From: a virus
Length of the DNA: 23,329 bases
IMG/VR virus record: IMGVR_UViG_3300001589_003128
Coordinates: 1-23,329 of that record
Strand: one strand, 5' to 3'
Part shown: positions 1 to 20,780 of the stretch, one piece after another
Layout of the letters: every line of letters starts with the position of its first letter
Numbering within the stretch: the first letter of the stretch is position 1
Notes under the pieces: model-generated
What the model was told of the DNA's origin: nothing
The model's input: only the letters and a program-made list of their open reading frames with translations
The model's database searches: none
Position numbers and translations under genes: made by a program

Positions 1-233
1 TGACTAATTATAACTGCGGCTTTACCATCTACATTGACTGGCATAGATTCTGACCATTTTAAAAATACTCTTTGGCCTGATTGGATATTTAATACCTCAT
101 CTCCGACTGCGAGTACTAATCCTGGTTTATTACCTTTATCAATCGCTTCGGTAAGTATTATACCACCTGCTGATTGTTCTTCTTTTTCTGTTTCAGCAAC
201 TAAAACGTTGTTGCCTAATACTTGAATTCCCAT
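1..233 (-). CDS. GroES-like co-chaperonin, C-terminus beyond window
   Basis: The reverse-strand reading frame starts at ATG 233-231 after a good AGGAG ribosome binding site (TTTATAGGAGAATAATATG) and is still open at base 1, giving 77 residues. It begins MGIQVLGNNVLVAETEKEEQ and continues with SAGGIILTEA, then the GLVLAVGDEV block and a VFLKWSE segment. This matches the GroES/Cpn10 order: N-terminal strand, mobile loop with an SAGGI-type hydrophobic tripeptide that contacts GroEL, then the beta-barrel 'VLAVG' strand. In T4 the equivalent co-chaperonin, gp31, works with host GroEL to fold gp23. The likely role here is the same (inference), but the sequence looks more like bacterial GroES than T4 gp31. 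It lies 16 bp after tRNA-Ala and is probably co-transcribed with it. Confidence 0.85.
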   Translation of the reverse strand, partial: MGIQVLGNNVLVAETEKEEQSAGGIILTEAIDKGNKPGLVLAVGDEVLNIQSGQRVFLKWSESMPVNVDGKAAVIIS

Positions 234-249
234 ATTATTCTCCTATAAA

Positions 250-325
250 TGGTGGAGCTGGAGGGGATCGAACCCACGACCTACGCGTTGCAAACGCGTC
301 GCTCTCCCTACTGAGCTACAGCCCC
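250..325 (-). tRNA. tRNA-Ala (anticodon UGC)
   Basis: A full cloverleaf is visible on the minus strand. The acceptor GGGGCTG (325-319) pairs with CAGCTCC (260-254). The D stem is GCTC/GAGC, the anticodon stem ACGCG/CGCGT with loop TTTGCAA, and the T loop is TTCGATC. Discriminator A and a genomically encoded CCA (252-250) follow. The acceptor stem carries G3:U70, the alanine identity pair, which supports the TGC anticodon call. The T stem has one T:T mismatch at its second pair. The first 10 nt overlap the end of the upstream CDS, whose TAG stop lies at tRNA nucleotides 8-10. Confidence 0.95.
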
Positions 326-1945: not shown

Positions 1946-1974
1946 ATTATACCATAGTTTTAGTGTGATGTAAA
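1946..1974 (-). promoter_or_regulatory. Early sigma70-type promoter for the 1923-to-1 operon
   Basis: On the minus strand TTTACA (1974-1969), a 17-bp spacer and TATAAT (1951-1946), preceded by GGGGG. The -35 lies in the last codons of the glycosylase-like gene, where GGGTTTACA encodes Gly-Phe-Thr. Predicted start near 1939. Confidence 0.85.
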
Positions 1975-2281: not shown

Positions 2282-4804
2282 TTATTCAAAAAATAAGTCC
2301 AATGTCATTTGTGGACTAGATGTCCAGCCAATAGGTTGTAAAATAGCTTCGATAGCATCTAAGAATGTCTTTTCGAATTGTAATTCTTTATCGATGTATT
2401 GTTCTAATCCAAATTCTTCTGGTAAGTAATCTGGGAAAGCAATAACATTTTCTTTAAGAGGATTAGGTTGCTTTAGGTAAATAAACTTTAGCTTATCGCC
2501 ATTTCTTAAGTTTGGATATTTGGTTAGATCTAGATCTTGCTTTTTCTTGTTATAAAGTAAAGCACCACGTACGTGAATAGGTGTGCCTTTCTTATAAATC
2601 GTAGCCGAATCTGCATAGCCAGTAATGTTGTTCGCGCCACGCGGGAAGGCAATTTGATATGGTGGTAAAGAAAAGAAATGTTCTTTGAATTGTTTAATTG
2701 CTTTCTGAACAGTTTTCTGATCTTCTGATATAATAACTTTGAATGTTTCTTTTAAAGCTTCTCTGCAAACTTCAGGTGTAGAACTTTTGTTAGCTTCTAC
2801 GCCAATGGTTTTAATCTTTGGTACTTTATATCTTACACCTTCGTTATCTATTACATTTAGAATATATCTTTTCTTAGCTAGGTAGATGCCACGATCTGCT
2901 ATAACCTCTCTAGACATAACCATTTTGTTTTGGAATCCACCAAACTTATCGTAGAATTCTTGGTAAGCTTTTACGAATACAGGTTCTAGTTTATCTTTTG
3001 AAACAGTATCTAGGAAGTCTACGCTATTCTTAGGATTAAATTTATTTACTAGATCGCCTAGTCCAACGTATAGTGAATCTGTATCGATGGTAATAACATA
3101 ATCTTTCTTAGTTGATAATAGTTTATTTAGGTATTCATTAATTGCATTTTCACCCCATCGGATAATAGCTTGGCCAGATAGTGTAATAGCTTCTGCAATT
3201 CTTTGGTCGAAGAACCTGAAGTAACGGTTACCAAGAGCACCATAAAGAGAGTTAAGTAGAATCTTGATAGACATTTGCCTATTTTCTGCAAGAGATATCT
3301 TTCTTTGTAAATCAAATATGTCTTGTTTATCTTCTGTCTTTTGTAGCTGTTGTTGATATTTGATCATATCTTTTTTAACAGTAACACGTTCTGTGTACAT
3401 CTCTTCGATGATCTTAGGCAGTACGCCTTGTTTAGAAGTATCGAAGTGTTGACCACCAGCTGCAATGCCAGTGTTATCTGGTCTGTTAATATTAGGTTTA
3501 GATAAGACTGTTTCTACATCTAGTTCTGGACTATATTCATTCTTAATAGTTTCTGGTGACATATTAAACTGCATAATGATAGATGGATATAGGGAGTTTA
3601 AATCGAAACTAACTACATGTTCATGCATACCAATATATGGTTCTTTGACATGACCACCAGGATAATTACCTTTCTCTGAATCTTTTGGGAAAGGAACTAT
3701 AATGTTATCTTGGTATAGATCACGGTAGATAATAGAATCCCATATTGCAGTAGTACCAAACGTATCTGAATAGTTAACACCACCACGATAAGCCATAGTC
3801 ATAGCTAATGTAATTAATCCCATTTTATCTTCGAAGCGATCGACTAATTCTACATCTTTGATATTATAATCAATAAACTTTTGGTGATCTGCTTTGTAAA
3901 GATTATATAGAGAACCATGTTCTTCGTAGGATAGTTTCTTTTCGCCAAGTACTACGTGAGCAATATTATTAAGCGAATATGATTCTTGTTGACCATAAGC
4001 ATAACCAAACTTCTTGAATACTTCCATATAATCCATTTGGGATATACCTTGGAATTCGAATGTTTCATCACGGTTTGCAGACTTGTAAGCTATTCTAGCT
4101 TCTCTACGTTCTACCATTCCCCAAGGAGAAAGCTTTTTGATATTCTCTTCGCCGAGGTCAGGCCCAAATACTCTACGAATACGATTGACCAGATAAGGTA
4201 TATCGAAGAACTTAGAGTTCCAGCCAGTTATAACATCAGGTGTATGCGAGGGTGTAGCCCAGTGATTAATAAAGTCTATTAGTAATTCTTTTTCATCTGC
4301 GCACTTTTTGTAAACTACGCGATTTGTTTTCATGATTGCTTTTGATACATCGTAATCGCCTAAGCCCCAGACATAATAGGTATTGTCTATATTATTTTTA
4401 AGACAAATAGCAGTTACGGTCTTAGCAGCTTCTGCAGGTTCTGGGAAGCCATCATCGGATTGAACTTCTATATCGATTGTTGTTACGTTAATTTTAGATC
4501 TATCGAATTCTATTTCACCAGGGAATAGATCATTGACTAAGCAGGCTTGGTGTCTGGTATTGCCAAAGATATGTCTGCCGGCTACATACTGGTTTTCTTG
4601 GATCCAGTTTTTAGCATCTCGCATCGATTCGAATTGAACAGGAGCAACAGGTTTCCCATCGAGAGATTTCCATTTGCTTGCTTTGTTAGTTCCTACGAAG
4701 AGTGTAGGTTTGTATTTGATTTTCTTTTGTACACGTTTACCATTTTCTATACCTCTGTAGAGAAGCATATTACCATAACGAGACACATTTGTGTAAAAAT
4801 TCAT
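2282..4804 (-). CDS. 43: Family B DNA polymerase, T4 gp43 type
   Basis: An 840-aa replicative polymerase (T4 gp43 is 898). All signatures are present. Exo I is TIDIEV (D111/E113), Exo II is ITGWNSKFFDIPYLVNR (D201) and Exo III is YNIKDVELVDR (D317), so 3'-5' proofreading is intact. Polymerase motif A is SFDLNSLYPSII (D401), motif B is KILLNSLYGALGNR (about 514-527) and motif C is ITIDTDSLY (D574/D576). The N-terminus, MNFYTNVSRYGNML, aligns with the T4 N-terminus, fixing the ATG at 4804. No Shine-Dalgarno exists: the -10 box ends 6 nt before the ATG, so transcription should start on the A of ATG (leaderless). It completes the 45-44-62-regA-43 order. Confidence 0.98.
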   Translation of the reverse strand: MNFYTNVSRYGNMLLYRGIENGKRVQKKIKYKPTLFVGTNKASKWKSLDGKPVAPVQFESMRDAKNWIQENQYVAGRHIFGNTRHQACLVNDLFPGEIEFDRSKINVTTIDIEVQSDDGFPEPAEAAKTVTAICLKNNIDNTYYVWGLGDYDVSKAIMKTNRVVYKKCADEKELLIDFINHWATPSHTPDVITGWNSKFFDIPYLVNRIRRVFGPDLGEENIKKLSPWGMVERREARIAYKSANRDETFEFQGISQMDYMEVFKKFGYAYGQQESYSLNNIAHVVLGEKKLSYEEHGSLYNLYKADHQKFIDYNIKDVELVDRFEDKMGLITLAMTMAYRGGVNYSDTFGTTAIWDSIIYRDLYQDNIIVPFPKDSEKGNYPGGHVKEPYIGMHEHVVSFDLNSLYPSIIMQFNMSPETIKNEYSPELDVETVLSKPNINRPDNTGIAAGGQHFDTSKQGVLPKIIEEMYTERVTVKKDMIKYQQQLQKTEDKQDIFDLQRKISLAENRQMSIKILLNSLYGALGNRYFRFFDQRIAEAITLSGQAIIRWGENAINEYLNKLLSTKKDYVITIDTDSLYVGLGDLVNKFNPKNSVDFLDTVSKDKLEPVFVKAYQEFYDKFGGFQNKMVMSREVIADRGIYLAKKRYILNVIDNEGVRYKVPKIKTIGVEANKSSTPEVCREALKETFKVIISEDQKTVQKAIKQFKEHFFSLPPYQIAFPRGANNITGYADSATIYKKGTPIHVRGALLYNKKKQDLDLTKYPNLRNGDKLKFIYLKQPNPLKENVIAFPDYLPEEFGLEQYIDKELQFEKTFLDAIEAILQPIGWTSSPQMTLDLFFE

Positions 4805-4810
4805 AAGTAT

Positions 4811-4839
4811 ATTATACCATAATTTAACGAGGATGTAAA
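4811..4839 (-). promoter_or_regulatory. Early promoter of gene 43, predicts leaderless mRNA
   Basis: Minus strand: GGGGTTTACA (-35 TTTACA at 4839-4834), a 17-bp spacer and TATAAT (4816-4811). Counting the last T of the -10 as position -7 puts +1 at 4804, which is the A of the polymerase start codon. Confidence 0.85.
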
Positions 4840-4850
4840 CCCCCTAATTC

Positions 4851-4883
4851 AAAAAAGGTGGAGGAGAGTTTCCCCTCCTCACC
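4851..4883 (-). terminator. Intrinsic terminator ending the hsp20 cassette
   Basis: On the minus strand a hairpin (4883-4857) with a GGTG/CACC base, one bulged C, then AGGAGGG/CTCTCCT closing a GAAA loop, followed by TTTTTT (4856-4851). It lies 17 bp after the stop of the 44-aa gene and just upstream of the gene 43 promoter, insulating the two units. Confidence 0.85.
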
Positions 4884-4899
4884 CAAGTTTTCTAATTGC

Positions 4900-5034
4900 T
4901 TAATTAAGTGTTGCTAACCAAATTAATGCAGGAGCTGTACCAATACATACTCCAAACACCAATGTAGCTTGTAACGCGTCAATTAAGGTCTTAGCGATTT
5001 CATGTTCAGCCACGTAGGCTTTTATTTTTGTCAT
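4900..5034 (-). CDS. 44-aa small membrane protein
   Basis: ATG at 5034 with a well-placed GGAG (ACTGGAGATAAATCATG); stop TAA at 4902-4900. The N-terminal half is polar (MTKIKAYVAEHEIAKTLIDA). The C-terminal half is one likely membrane segment (TLVFGVCIGTAPALIWLATL) ending in LN. It lies 56 bp after hsp20 and just before an intrinsic terminator, so it is probably the second gene of the late hsp20 unit. I do not recognise the family. It could be a virion-associated or lysis-related membrane peptide, but nothing in the sequence decides this. Confidence 0.7.
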   Translation of the reverse strand: MTKIKAYVAEHEIAKTLIDALQATLVFGVCIGTAPALIWLATLN

Positions 5035-5090
5035 GATTTATCTCCAGTAAAAAGTTTTTACACCATCTACTGAGTGTCGCTAATTGAGAA

Positions 5091-5546
5091 TTACCCTTTC
5101 AGGAATTCTTTCTTTGTTGATGCCCCAGCAGACCCTATTTTGATCTCCCTAGGACGCTTCTCTTCTGGAAGTTCTACCCTAGCATACACTACAAGTATTC
5201 CATCACTAAGATCAGCACCGTCGATTACGACAAATTCAGAGAGGCGGAAGCTCTTCTCGAATTTGCGGGACGATATACCCTTATACGCGAATTCGCGGTC
5301 ATCCTTAGCCATCTCACCTTTAACCTTGAGAATCCCATCTTTGACCTCAACTGATATGTCTTCTTGTCGAAAACCAGCTAATGCCATTTCGATTAAAAAT
5401 TTCTCTTCATCGATCTTCACCACATTATGTGGCGGATAGTTATCTCCTGGTGATTTCCCTGCAGAGTGAATCCTCTCCAGCTCGTCTAATAAAGGCTCAA
5501 AGCCTACGAATAAAGAACGCGGTACGTTCATTGTATTTCTTACCAT
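5091..5546 (-). CDS. hsp20: Hsp20 / alpha-crystallin small heat shock protein
   Basis: 151 aa from ATG 5546, with a strong AGGAGG 8 nt upstream. The alpha-crystallin domain runs from about residue 40 (VVKIDEEKFLIEMALAGF) through EDISVEVKDGILKVKGE to the hallmark C-terminal strand GILVVYARVELPEE and KRPREIKIG (about residues 116-138). The family holds unfolding proteins as an ATP-independent chaperone. Hsp20 genes are common in marine T4-like phages and may assist virion protein folding (inference). Expression is probably late: TATAAATA lies 66 bp upstream. The leader contains a short hairpin (TAAATA/TATTTA, 5580-5562) ending one base before the Shine-Dalgarno, a possible translation control element. 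Confidence 0.95.
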   Translation of the reverse strand: MVRNTMNVPRSLFVGFEPLLDELERIHSAGKSPGDNYPPHNVVKIDEEKFLIEMALAGFRQEDISVEVKDGILKVKGEMAKDDREFAYKGISSRKFEKSFRLSEFVVIDGADLSDGILVVYARVELPEEKRPREIKIGSAGASTKKEFLKG

Positions 5547-5611
5547 ATTTAGTTCCTCCTATAAATAGCAAGGTTATTTAGAGCCGGTCCAATACCGCAC
5601 TCTTTCAGTTA

Positions 5612-5619
5612 TATTTATA
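5612..5619 (-). promoter_or_regulatory. T4-type late promoter for hsp20
   Basis: Minus strand TATAAATA, in the context GTATAAATATAAC, between the regA stop and hsp20. It matches the T4 gp55-dependent late -10 element, and the same GTATAAATA context recurs at 8219-8212 and 21427-21420. Confidence 0.7.
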
Positions 5620-5624
5620 CAGGT

Positions 5625-6053
5625 TTAATCTTTAGATTGATTATTACCAATATTATATTTTGGACATAATTCCCACTCGACTTTTTCTTTAAAAGGTATT
5701 ACCTTTATTTGTCTAAGCGGAGCTACGTCCTTAGCTTGGGAAGGTTTCACCATAGTGACTAATCCCCAATCAGATAACAGAGTAGTAATTGTATTCCTAC
5801 GCTGTACATCATTCTCTATCAAATTAGATGGCTTACCATCTAATAGAAATAATTCTTTGAAGTGGACAATAAAGTATCTTCCTTGTTTATGCAATATATG
5901 GCATGATTGGAATAGTTTATTATCTTTTCGTGATGCGACCCCGATACGAGTAAGTGTTTCTCTGATTTTTAAAAAATCATCGGGTTCGTTTATTGTGACT
6001 TCCAACATATCGTTGGGAGTCCATGGTCTAATTTCATTATTTTGTTCTTCCAC
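5625..6053 (-). CDS. regA: RegA translational repressor
   Basis: 142 aa with a GTG start at 6053 that overlaps the end of gene 62 by 17 nt. The core, MLEVTINEPDDFLKIRETL, TRIGVASRKDNKLFQSCHIL, YFIVHFKELF..LDGKPSN, RRNTITTLLSDWGLV and CPKYNIGN, aligns along the whole length of T4 RegA (122 aa). RegA binds initiation regions of early phage mRNAs and blocks ribosomes, including its own mRNA. T4 RegA starts at the Met corresponding to ATG 6008 here, so that start (127 aa) is a real alternative; GTG 6053 has GAGG 10 nt upstream, while ATG 6008 has none. The T4 neighbourhood (62-regA-43) is kept, except that hsp20 and a small ORF separate regA from 43. Confidence 0.95.
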   Translation of the reverse strand: MEEQNNEIRPWTPNDMLEVTINEPDDFLKIRETLTRIGVASRKDNKLFQSCHILHKQGRYFIVHFKELFLLDGKPSNLIENDVQRRNTITTLLSDWGLVTMVKPSQAKDVAPLRQIKVIPFKEKVEWELCPKYNIGNNQSKD

Positions 6054-6417
6054 CTTTAGTCATCCTCAGTTTTATTTGTTTAATTTGATCGCCAGTAAGA
6101 AGAGATAATATAGACTTTGCTTTTTCATTGCTATATCCATAATGTTTCTTAATGCAATCCAAATCTTCAATCTCCGATGGTTTAACCCATTTGGAGAATC
6201 TTTTTTTCTTTGTTATTATATTTATAAAAAAATCGTTTTGAAGACGGTTATCTAGGTGGTGGTTTACATTCATTTCATTCGCATATAGAACAGTATCTTT
6301 AAAATGAGATAACGTTCTATTTACTAAAAATGGTTGATATGCTTTTTCAGTTACATCATCTACAATTAAATCTTTTTTAGTAAAGTTAATTGCATTTATA
6401 AAATCAAATGGATTCAT
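6037..6417 (-). CDS. 62: Clamp-loader small subunit gp62
   Basis: 126 aa from ATG 6417 (MNPFDFINAINFTKKDL). Upstream in-frame ATGs at 6426, 6444 and 6453 exist but lie inside the preceding ORF and lack a better ribosome site. The block PFLVNRTLSHFKDTVLYANE, then KKRFSKWVKPSE, matches T4 gp62 (KFMVENALSQFP...YAMN; RYGKWAK). It is shorter than T4 gp62 (187 aa), mainly in its C-terminal part. One gp62 with four gp44 subunits loads the gp45 clamp onto primer junctions. The start overlaps the upstream ORF stop by 14 nt and its own end overlaps regA, showing tight coupling. Confidence 0.88.
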   Translation of the reverse strand: MNPFDFINAINFTKKDLIVDDVTEKAYQPFLVNRTLSHFKDTVLYANEMNVNHHLDNRLQNDFFINIITKKKRFSKWVKPSEIEDLDCIKKHYGYSNEKAKSILSLLTGDQIKQIKLRMTKGGRTK

Positions 6418-6649
6418 CTTCTCCATACCTTCCACGGGTTTCATTCCCGTCATAATTTAATTCAGTCATACTTTTTTGCTTAATCTTTTGGTCAAAATTG
6501 TCATCGACTTCGTTTCTATACTTAGTCTTATATTTATTTAGTTCATCTGTAAGAACACCAATGCGGGCATAAGCTGCCTGCAATTGTCCTTGTATTTCTT
6601 TTACCGTACTTTCCATAATCTGTATTTCGTTCAATGCGTGAATAGACAT
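6404..6649 (-). CDS. 81-aa coiled-coil protein between genes 44 and 62
   Basis: ATG 6649 follows the gp44 stop directly (TAAATG). Residues about 5-45 form a heptad-like helix (EIQIMESTVKEIQGQLQAAY, then ARIGVLTDELNKYKTKY), strongly suggesting a coiled coil. The tail is polar and charged, ending GRYGEDESI. I recognise no family. Its location, inside the clamp-loader operon and overlapping gene 62, suggests coupled expression and possibly a replication-complex partner (inference). The overlap with gene 62 and intact frame argue that it is a real gene. Confidence 0.65.
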   Translation of the reverse strand: MSIHALNEIQIMESTVKEIQGQLQAAYARIGVLTDELNKYKTKYRNEVDDNFDQKIKQKSMTELNYDGNETRGRYGEDESI

Positions 6650-8922: not shown

Positions 8923-8951
8923 ATTATACCATAGTTTTGGTTGAATGTAAA
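8923..8951 (-). promoter_or_regulatory. Early promoter of gene 45
   Basis: Minus strand TTTACA (8951-8946), a 17-bp spacer and TATAAT (8928-8923) within GGTATAAT. Predicted start at about 8916, giving a 27-nt leader that holds the AGGA site. Confidence 0.85.
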
Positions 8952-11308: not shown

Positions 11309-11337
11309 ATTATACCGTATTTCTGGCTCCTTGTAAA
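11309..11337 (-). promoter_or_regulatory. Early promoter of the CobS-like operon
   Basis: Minus strand TTTACA (11337-11332), 17 bp, TATAAT (11314-11309). Bases 11301-11322 are identical to 13591-13612 in the CobT-like gene promoter, indicating co-regulation or duplication. Confidence 0.82.
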
Positions 11338-13705: not shown

Positions 13706-13782
13706 TGGCGCACCCAGGAGGACTCGAACCTCCAACCCTCGGCTTAGAAGGCCGATGTTCTATCCAGTTGAACTATGGGTGC
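13706..13782 (-). tRNA. tRNA-Arg (anticodon UCU)
   Basis: Minus-strand cloverleaf with acceptor GCACCCA/TGGGTGC (7 perfect pairs), D stem GTTC/GAAC, anticodon stem TCGGC/GCCGA with loop CTTCTAA, and T stem GGAGG/CCTCC with loop TTCGAGT. The discriminator is G and CCA is encoded. It decodes AGA (and AGG), the favoured arginine codon in this AT-rich genome. It starts 6 nt after the stop of the 72-aa ORF and is probably cut from the gp55-47-46 transcript. Confidence 0.96.
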
Positions 13783-19418: not shown

Positions 19419-20311
19419 TAGATAATTTCTTTTAATCGTTTCACAGTACTATTTATATCACTACAAAGATAACCATATATGTACCAATTAATAAACTTGT
19501 TTGCGTAGAATGGATCATGCCAAGTTAAATCTGTAATTAAATCTTCTAGTTGGGTTAATGATTGTAATTGTTTTGTAGCCCAATGGTATTCAGGAAATCC
19601 ATAAGATATGATTGGTACCTGATGCATTAAACATTCTATTCCAGCAGTACTATTTTCTGTAATAGCTACTCTTGTTTTAGGTAATACATCATGAATACTG
19701 ACATATCCTTCTATTACCCTAATCCCAGATTTTTTCCACTGGTTAATCTGGTTTGTTTTTCTTTTATCCTGGAATGATGGGTGTAATTTAACTACAATCG
19801 GTCTTGTCTGTGATACTAATAACTTGGCAACAATACTACAAATTTTAGTCCAATGGTTACCAAATCCGAATCCATCTACTGTTTCATCTTTAGGTTGTTG
19901 TACTATAACGAGAACATGATCTTTAGGAAAGTTTTTTCTCAAATCGTCTTTCCATTTAACCATAATAGAATCATCCCATTTATTAGATTTAGATTTAATT
20001 AATTCTGATATATCGGAATTATCAGTATATTCTTTTTTTAATCCAATCGGCTCTTTAAATGCTAGTGTAGAACTATTAGCGTACCCGTGGGTATCTATTG
20101 CAAAGTGATCACTGGTAGGACCAGTTGGTTTAAAAATAAGAGTATATTCGCTCCAGGCTGGAACTTCTGATATATGACAATGATTGTATATATCAATATC
20201 AGCGATATCGCTTTGGCTTTCAGTATGTCCTAGAACAGACATAGCTTGATGTATTACGTTTTCGTGTTTAGTAAAATTATCGAAACGGTATTGATGTATT
20301 TTATATTCCAC
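19418..20311 (-). CDS. Capsule-synthesis-type glycosyltransferase-like protein
   Basis: About 297 aa from GTG 20311, overlapping the uvsY end; an in-frame TTG at 20332 is the alternative and neither has a clear ribosome site. The C-terminal half has VVKLHPSFQD, then VIEGYVSIHDVLPKTRVAIT, ENSTAGIECLMHQVPIISYG and FPEYH. This is the pattern of the KpsC/KpsS capsule polysaccharide synthase family, a GT-B fold in which 'HP' and 'NSTxGxE' contact the sugar nucleotide. The N-terminal half (YTLIFKPTGP; FAIDTHGYAN) is less conserved. It may modify host surface sugars or phage components (inference). It is an unexpected cargo gene between uvsY and uvsW. Confidence 0.62.
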   Translation of the reverse strand: MEYKIHQYRFDNFTKHENVIHQAMSVLGHTESQSDIADIDIYNHCHISEVPAWSEYTLIFKPTGPTSDHFAIDTHGYANSSTLAFKEPIGLKKEYTDNSDISELIKSKSNKWDDSIMVKWKDDLRKNFPKDHVLVIVQQPKDETVDGFGFGNHWTKICSIVAKLLVSQTRPIVVKLHPSFQDKRKTNQINQWKKSGIRVIEGYVSIHDVLPKTRVAITENSTAGIECLMHQVPIISYGFPEYHWATKQLQSLTQLEDLITDLTWHDPFYANKFINWYIYGYLCSDINSTVKRLKEII

Positions 20312-20744
20312 TAGTAAATTTACGCCACTCAATCATATTCTTAATTGTTTGGTGACGCCATTTAATGCTATCTAATATCTCTTTTAGAGTACTACATAAT
20401 TCTTCTTGATATGCTATTCTTTTTTGCATTTCTTGGATAATAGGATCTGAATCATAATACTTATCCATATCGGATTTAAGTACTGTTAGTCCATTTAATG
20501 GATCGTATTCCCATCCTTTTTCATTTAATTCGTCTTGGGTTAGTTTACCATTATAATGATTAAACTTATCTCTAAGTAAAACCTTAAAGTCTAATTCTAA
20601 TTGTTTCAATTTTAATCTGCTTACACTATATATCTCCAAGTATTTGGAGTGTAGTTTTGCTGTTGCTCGGGAGGATTCATCTAATGCCATTTCATCAATA
20701 ACATTATCTTTTTTCCACATTTCTAATACATTTTCTAAGTTCAT
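20301..20744 (-). CDS. uvsY: UvsY recombination mediator
   Basis: 147 aa (T4 UvsY is 137) from ATG 20744. The N-terminus MNLENVLEMWKKDNVIDEMA, LHSKYLEIYSVSRLKLKQLE, KVLLRDKFNHYNGKL and the C-terminal IKWRHQTIKNMIEWRKF follow T4 UvsY (LYSKWLNKHSSIKKEML; YYSG; IKSRGFAIKHIQDMRAF). UvsY loads UvsX recombinase onto gp32-coated ssDNA. The -10 box ends 7 nt before the ATG, so the mRNA should have no leader or a single base. Confidence 0.93.
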   Translation of the reverse strand: MNLENVLEMWKKDNVIDEMALDESSRATAKLHSKYLEIYSVSRLKLKQLELDFKVLLRDKFNHYNGKLTQDELNEKGWEYDPLNGLTVLKSDMDKYYDSDPIIQEMQKRIAYQEELCSTLKEILDSIKWRHQTIKNMIEWRKFTSGI

Positions 20745-20751
20745 AACGTAT

Positions 20752-20780
20752 ATTATACCACAGTTTACGAGAAAAGTAAA
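20752..20780 (-). promoter_or_regulatory. Early promoter of uvsY, predicts leaderless mRNA
   Basis: Minus strand GGGGTTTACT (-35 at 20780-20775), 17 bp, TATAAT (20757-20752). Predicted +1 is 20745 or 20744; the ATG begins at 20744. Confidence 0.83.

Follow-up and report, generated by a model that had tools for sequence, protein, structure and literature searches.

A probably leaderless gene 43 (DNA polymerase) message in T4-like phages, with a promoter design that recurs at uvsY and further genes

Gene 43 of phage T4 is the textbook case of translational autoregulation through an mRNA leader, and the lambda cI mRNA made from PRM is the classic leaderless message of a phage. The T4 product, gp43, represses its own translation via a leader hairpin and the ribosome binding site, and some T4-related gp43 proteins do not autoregulate (PMC3014915). 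On known leaderless mRNAs the 5' AUG is the binding site of 70S ribosomes, and cI is handled as an mRNA of this kind (PMC9031893). Leaderless bacterial genes are marked by a -10 signal some 12 bp ahead of the start codon (Zheng et al. 2011, PMC3160421), and the AR9 authors describe phage transcripts as often leaderless (PMC5312081). Early promoters of cyanomyoviruses resemble those of host sigma70, the middle-mode factors MotA and AsiA being absent from the group, and no leaderless genes are mentioned in the cyanomyovirus review (PMC2984593).

Here we analyse a 23,329-nt stretch of viral DNA (positions 1 to 23,329 of IMGVR_UViG_3300001589_003128, hereafter the window) and propose that its gp43 mRNA is leaderless, a design common to uvsY and further genes in related marine phages; judged on sequence patterns, we place the probability of this reading at roughly 0.86. 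The locus shares with the bacterial genes of Zheng et al. the TA-like signal, its -12 position and the inference drawn from them, but theirs belong to cellular genomes, whereas here replication genes of T4-like phages are concerned, with repeated switching at one gene. As with lambda cI, a phage message would begin with AUG; cI, however, encodes the repressor of a temperate phage, and the genes here encode the replicative DNA polymerase and the recombination mediator of T4-like phages. Compared to gene 43 control in T4 and RB69, gene and protein are homologous, but T4 has a leader operator while the transcript predicted here has no leader. Host sigma70-like promoters are likewise shared with the cyanomyoviruses, although gp43 of Syn9 is leadered and that of the window is predicted not to be.

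The encoded protein is a family B DNA polymerase with an exonuclease domain and a T4-type N-terminus, as for T4-like gene 43 polymerases (Pfam matches DNA_pol_B, 1.5e-31, and DNA_pol_B_exo1, 6e-22), and its near relative in the 130-kb record G001 matches the phrog_262 DNA polymerase. The residues F3-Y4-T5-N6-V7 are invariant in the aligned gp43 proteins, which are 44-67% identical to that of the window, and the ATG at 4804 is therefore the true start, in agreement with the original prediction, which had fixed it by alignment of the N-terminus. The next in-frame ATG is codon 13, and initiation there would give a leader of about 36 nt. A GGTAA stretch does precede Met13 within the coding sequence, but such a start would remove the FYTNV motif that all compared proteins keep, and we reject it as hardly credible.

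Table 1. Positions of the features discussed, numbered along the window.
Feature	Position	Strand	Remarks
Gene 43, family B DNA polymerase, 840 aa	2282..4804	-	ATG 4804-4802; Pfam and FYTNV N-terminus
-35 hexamer TTTACA (gene 43)	4834..4839	-	TTTAC(A/T), TGTACA or TTGACA at spacing 17 in near relatives
Extended -10, TGG-TATAAT (gene 43)	4811..4819	-	end 6 nt from gp43 ATG
Predicted +1, A of AUG (gene 43)	4804	-	inferred from sigma70 spacing; distance 6 in 11-13 gp43 clusters
Intrinsic terminator upstream of gp43 promoter	4851..4884	-	stem of about 12 pairs, then six U
uvsY, 147 aa, second predicted leaderless gene	20301..20744	-	Pfam UvsY 3e-26; ATG 20744
uvsY promoter, TTTACT-17-TATAAT, spacer end TGG	20752..20780	-	followed by ATACGTT (7 nt), then ATG
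Leadered control promoter	1946..1974	-	22 nt to ATG 1923, SD CGGAG
Leadered control promoter, gp45	8923..8951	-	33 nt to ATG 8889, SD AGGA
Leadered control promoter	11309..11337	-	38 nt to ATG 11270, SD GAGGAG
Leadered control promoter, late sigma-like by relative in L530	17395..17423	-	34 nt to ATG 17360, SD GGAG
RegA-type translational repressor gene	5625-6053		Pfam Translat_reg 5e-44
tRNA-Ala (TGC) gene	250-325	-	
tRNA-Arg (TCT) gene	13706-13782	-	
ORF resembling a GroES-type co-chaperonin	3-233	-	MGIQVLGNNVLVAE..GGIIL, by eye only

Upstream of this start lies a promoter with a 17-nt spacer ending in TGG, its TATAAT occupying 4816-4811 of the minus strand. With 11 of 12 consensus matches plus the extended -10 it is the top-scoring site within 3800-6500; the matrix used is that of E. 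coli, which may not be that of the phage's host, and the +1 is a prediction from sequence. The bases ATACTT separate TATAAT from the ATG, placing the first T of the hexamer at -12 and its last T at -7. Since the -10 ends 6 nt upstream of the ATG, the +1 is expected at the A of the AUG, which is the seventh base past the -10 and is directly preceded by T; an A after a T is the favoured context for a sigma70 start. No Shine-Dalgarno (SD) sequence precedes the ATG: the upstream duplex reaches -2.8 kcal/mol, weaker than in SD-bearing genes, and is owed to the GG within the -10 region. Thus the TATAAT 6 nt before the ATG and the missing SD, on which a leaderless message had been predicted, are both present as described, as is every other sequence element claimed.

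We propose that the host sigma70-type RNA polymerase would initiate at the A of the gp43 AUG, such that the 5' end of the mRNA coincides with the start codon, and that ribosomes, probably 70S monosomes carrying initiator tRNA as on known leaderless mRNAs, would start there independently of SD pairing. The sequences show the promoter, its spacing, the missing SD and the recurrence in relatives; where exactly +1 lies, initiation by 70S ribosomes and the effect on regulation are inferred. The first 30 nt of the predicted transcript are weakly folded (z -0.2).

Weak -10-like sequences are frequent in AT-rich DNA, and an ordinary promoter might have landed at the start codon by chance. However, the window contains seven strict promoters (TGN-TATAAT and a -35 matching at 4/6 positions or more), while 300 shuffles yield 0.36 on average and never more than 3, and the spacing is bimodal, anticorrelated with SD sequences and repeatedly recurrent, as described below. 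Chance placement is rejected on the shuffle excess and the bimodal gp43 spacing, and we consider it next to impossible. Among the seven promoters found upstream of genes in the window, two lie 6 and 7 nt from the ATG (gp43 and uvsY) and five at 22-38 nt. A single promoter type would then serve two translational classes, one leaderless and the other with leaders of 22-38 nt, mostly bearing an SD.

The upstream terminator, also part of the original prediction, is confirmed in the window as a strong stem followed by six U (4884-4851, -18.7 kcal/mol, z -2.6), but it is not evident in all near relatives, some close ones being among the exceptions. In the window it would curb read-through from the hsp20 side, and the leaderless message would probably be the main gp43 mRNA; in relatives without an evident terminator, read-through messages may contribute. 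That gp43 is mostly made from read-through or processed messages of the upstream cluster, the promoter being a minor supplement, would fit these relatives as well as some cyanophage-like clusters in which gp43 has no promoter and adjoins the upstream gene. The strength of the terminator in the window and the retention of the promoter among near relatives speak against it, and a read-through message would have no SD either; we regard this explanation as very improbable.

The arrangement was compared across relatives, starting from 80 IMG/VR loci picked by gp43 protein similarity, blind to the upstream sequence. Every near relative whose upstream region is long enough has a promoter with spacing 17 and TATAAT (TACAAT in two). 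The gp43 genes nearest to that of the window (75-92% identity) lie 6, 7, 9, 10 or 11 nt from the -10, none with an SD, and more distant ones lie at either 6-12 nt or 25-36 nt, with AGGTGA frequent in the latter. Three further similarity scans, two loci from bacterial bins and named phages were added, bringing the parsed gp43 starts to 312; where the upstream sequence sufficed, they form 49 clusters at 80% identity, of which 36 carry a promoter scoring above 99% of shuffled upstream regions. In these 36 the distance from -10 to ATG is bimodal, 6-12 nt in 16 clusters (6 in 11, 7 in two, 9 in two, 12 in one) and 22-43 nt in 20, with none at 0-5 or 13-21 nt, and two more clusters at distance 6 fall marginally under the promoter threshold. 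A gap at 13-21 nt is expected if leaders must either be close to absent or leave room for an SD. Eleven of 36 at exactly 6 corresponds to a binomial probability of about 2e-10 against a uniform distribution, kinship ignored. An SD, called where the duplex reaches -4 kcal/mol, is absent from all 18 short clusters and present in 16 of the 24 long clusters (p=5e-6); the clusters are still related, such that these p-values overstate independence. Long leaders lacking an SD also occur in some relatives, so that its absence alone is not decisive. All 145 loci of the short class start with ATG, as does gp43 of the window, while GTG and TTG also occur in the long class. The short class is no more open in its 5' coding structure, the first 45 nt folding at -4.7 kcal/mol versus -5.0 in the long class. 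A DNA pattern scan allowing 4-9 nt placed 50 of 80 loci, whose gp43 is about 34-77% identical to that of the window, at exactly 6. The bimodal distance with its mode at 6, together with the lack of SD sequences in the short class, lends comparative support to the leaderless message predicted at the outset.

On a gp43 tree made by a quick method, unrooted and hence without a set direction of change, the short and long states require no fewer than 10 changes; for the short label, well-supported branches demand 8 or more. The short design is thus unlikely to be a single inherited accident; judging from these sequences, the two states appear to interchange repeatedly. Among named phages, C48C1 has TTGACA-17-TATAAT 7 nt from the gp43 ATG, and Pelagibacter phage HTVC008M has TTGACT-17-TATAAT at 12 nt; the leaders predicted for them are 0-1 nt and about 5 nt. 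The gene is leadered in Melnitz (26 nt, SD present) and, from a promoter-like site at 41 nt, in Syn9, while no clear promoter precedes it in Mosig. When named phages were searched at the DNA level with three divergent loci, the matches were mostly internal to gp43, and the best were those to HTVC008M. The two bacterial bins with gp43 relatives are Rhodobacteraceae and Gammaproteobacteria assemblies, and gp43 is leadered in both.

The spread of short distances bears on whether the leader is strictly absent. Transcription might start 1-5 nt upstream of the ATG, for example at A4808 or T4806, with a leader too short for an SD, and such an mRNA would still work via recognition of the 5'-end AUG. 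Relatives at 7, 9, 11 and 12 nt (the last including HTVC008M), several with an A at position 5, point in this direction, as the 7-12 nt spacing in several close relatives implies leaders of 0-8 nt and not strictly zero. In the window, however, there is a T at position 5 and, at position 7, an A after T, the favoured start, and distance 6 is the clear mode among gp43 loci, making such a short leader unlikely.

Two further arrangements were observed at gp43 promoters and leaders. An inverted repeat, TTGACTTTTTAAGTCAA, lies in the gp43 -35 region of L207 (HTVC008M, about 2521-2537), L294 and L289, and could by its position be an operator overlapping the promoter. In a group with leaders of 26-33 nt and no SD, a 4-codon upstream ORF such as ATGGTTATACTATGA (5 codons in L040) ends in a TGA that overlaps the gp43 ATG (L035, L038, L040-L043, L045, L047, L048, L052, L054 and L067); it is kept in 12 distinct leader sequences, an arrangement suggestive of translational coupling to a very short leader peptide.

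The leaderless start had been tied to gp43, a scope that needs correction, as the design recurs at uvsY and other genes across marine T4-like phages; a mechanism specific to gp43 is rejected because these genes use the identical design. In the window no SD precedes the uvsY ATG at 20744, and among uvsY relatives most distinct upstream regions have the promoter at 6-11 nt, while an SD accompanies most of those at 24-43 nt. Of 19 promoters in G001, 9 lie at 6-11 nt and 10 at 22-35 nt, with none at intermediate distance and an SD in 9 of the 10 long-distance genes versus 0 of the 9 short ones (p=1e-4). Its leaderless-type genes include gp43, uvsY and the ribonucleotide reductase large subunit, whereas gp45, the late sigma factor and ribosomal protein S21 are among the leadered ones. 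Of 8 sites in the distant record G002, 7 lie at 0-7 nt, the site at 0 falling within a reductase gene and that at 4 being doubtful; in both records each gene was taken to start at the first ATG of an ORF with 55 codons or more, and some starts may be misplaced. A primase-like gene near gp43, its family assigned via the homologue in the window, is also leaderless-type in several relatives.

S21 is phage-encoded in G001 (L531:10728-10976), with similar genes in L536, L141, L149 and L096, and the S21-encoding phages carry a leaderless-type gp43. As the anti-SD end of 16S rRNA is where S21 acts, a link to leaderless translation is worth considering. Tentatively, and with somewhat less than even odds, the data may reflect a programme of two classes in which DNA polymerase, UvsY, the primase-like protein and ribonucleotide reductase are leaderless and translated by 70S ribosomes, escaping SD competition and leader-binding repressors and possibly tuned by S21.

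As for regulation, a T4-style leader operator cannot form on the predicted gp43 transcript because it has no leader, and the T4/RB69 arrangement of a hairpin and SD within a leader is not found there. The statement that T4 leader autoregulation is impossible here is accordingly fair for the leader operator, but less distinctive than it sounded, as autoregulation was known to be missing from some T4-related gp43 proteins. The phage may nonetheless encode leader-directed repression, since a RegA-type gene is present (Table 1).

Leaderless phage mRNAs as such are already known; for gp43 or uvsY we found no report of them in the open-access literature, where they appear to be undescribed. For annotation, gene callers based on SD sequences can misplace leaderless starts. 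The possible gain from a leaderless gp43 may be escape from repression, independence from SD competition or plain economy. The repeated absence of the gp43 leader among many marine relatives, with the same design at uvsY, the primase-like gene and ribonucleotide reductase, would represent a natural experiment on why leaderless translation is used over SD-led translation.
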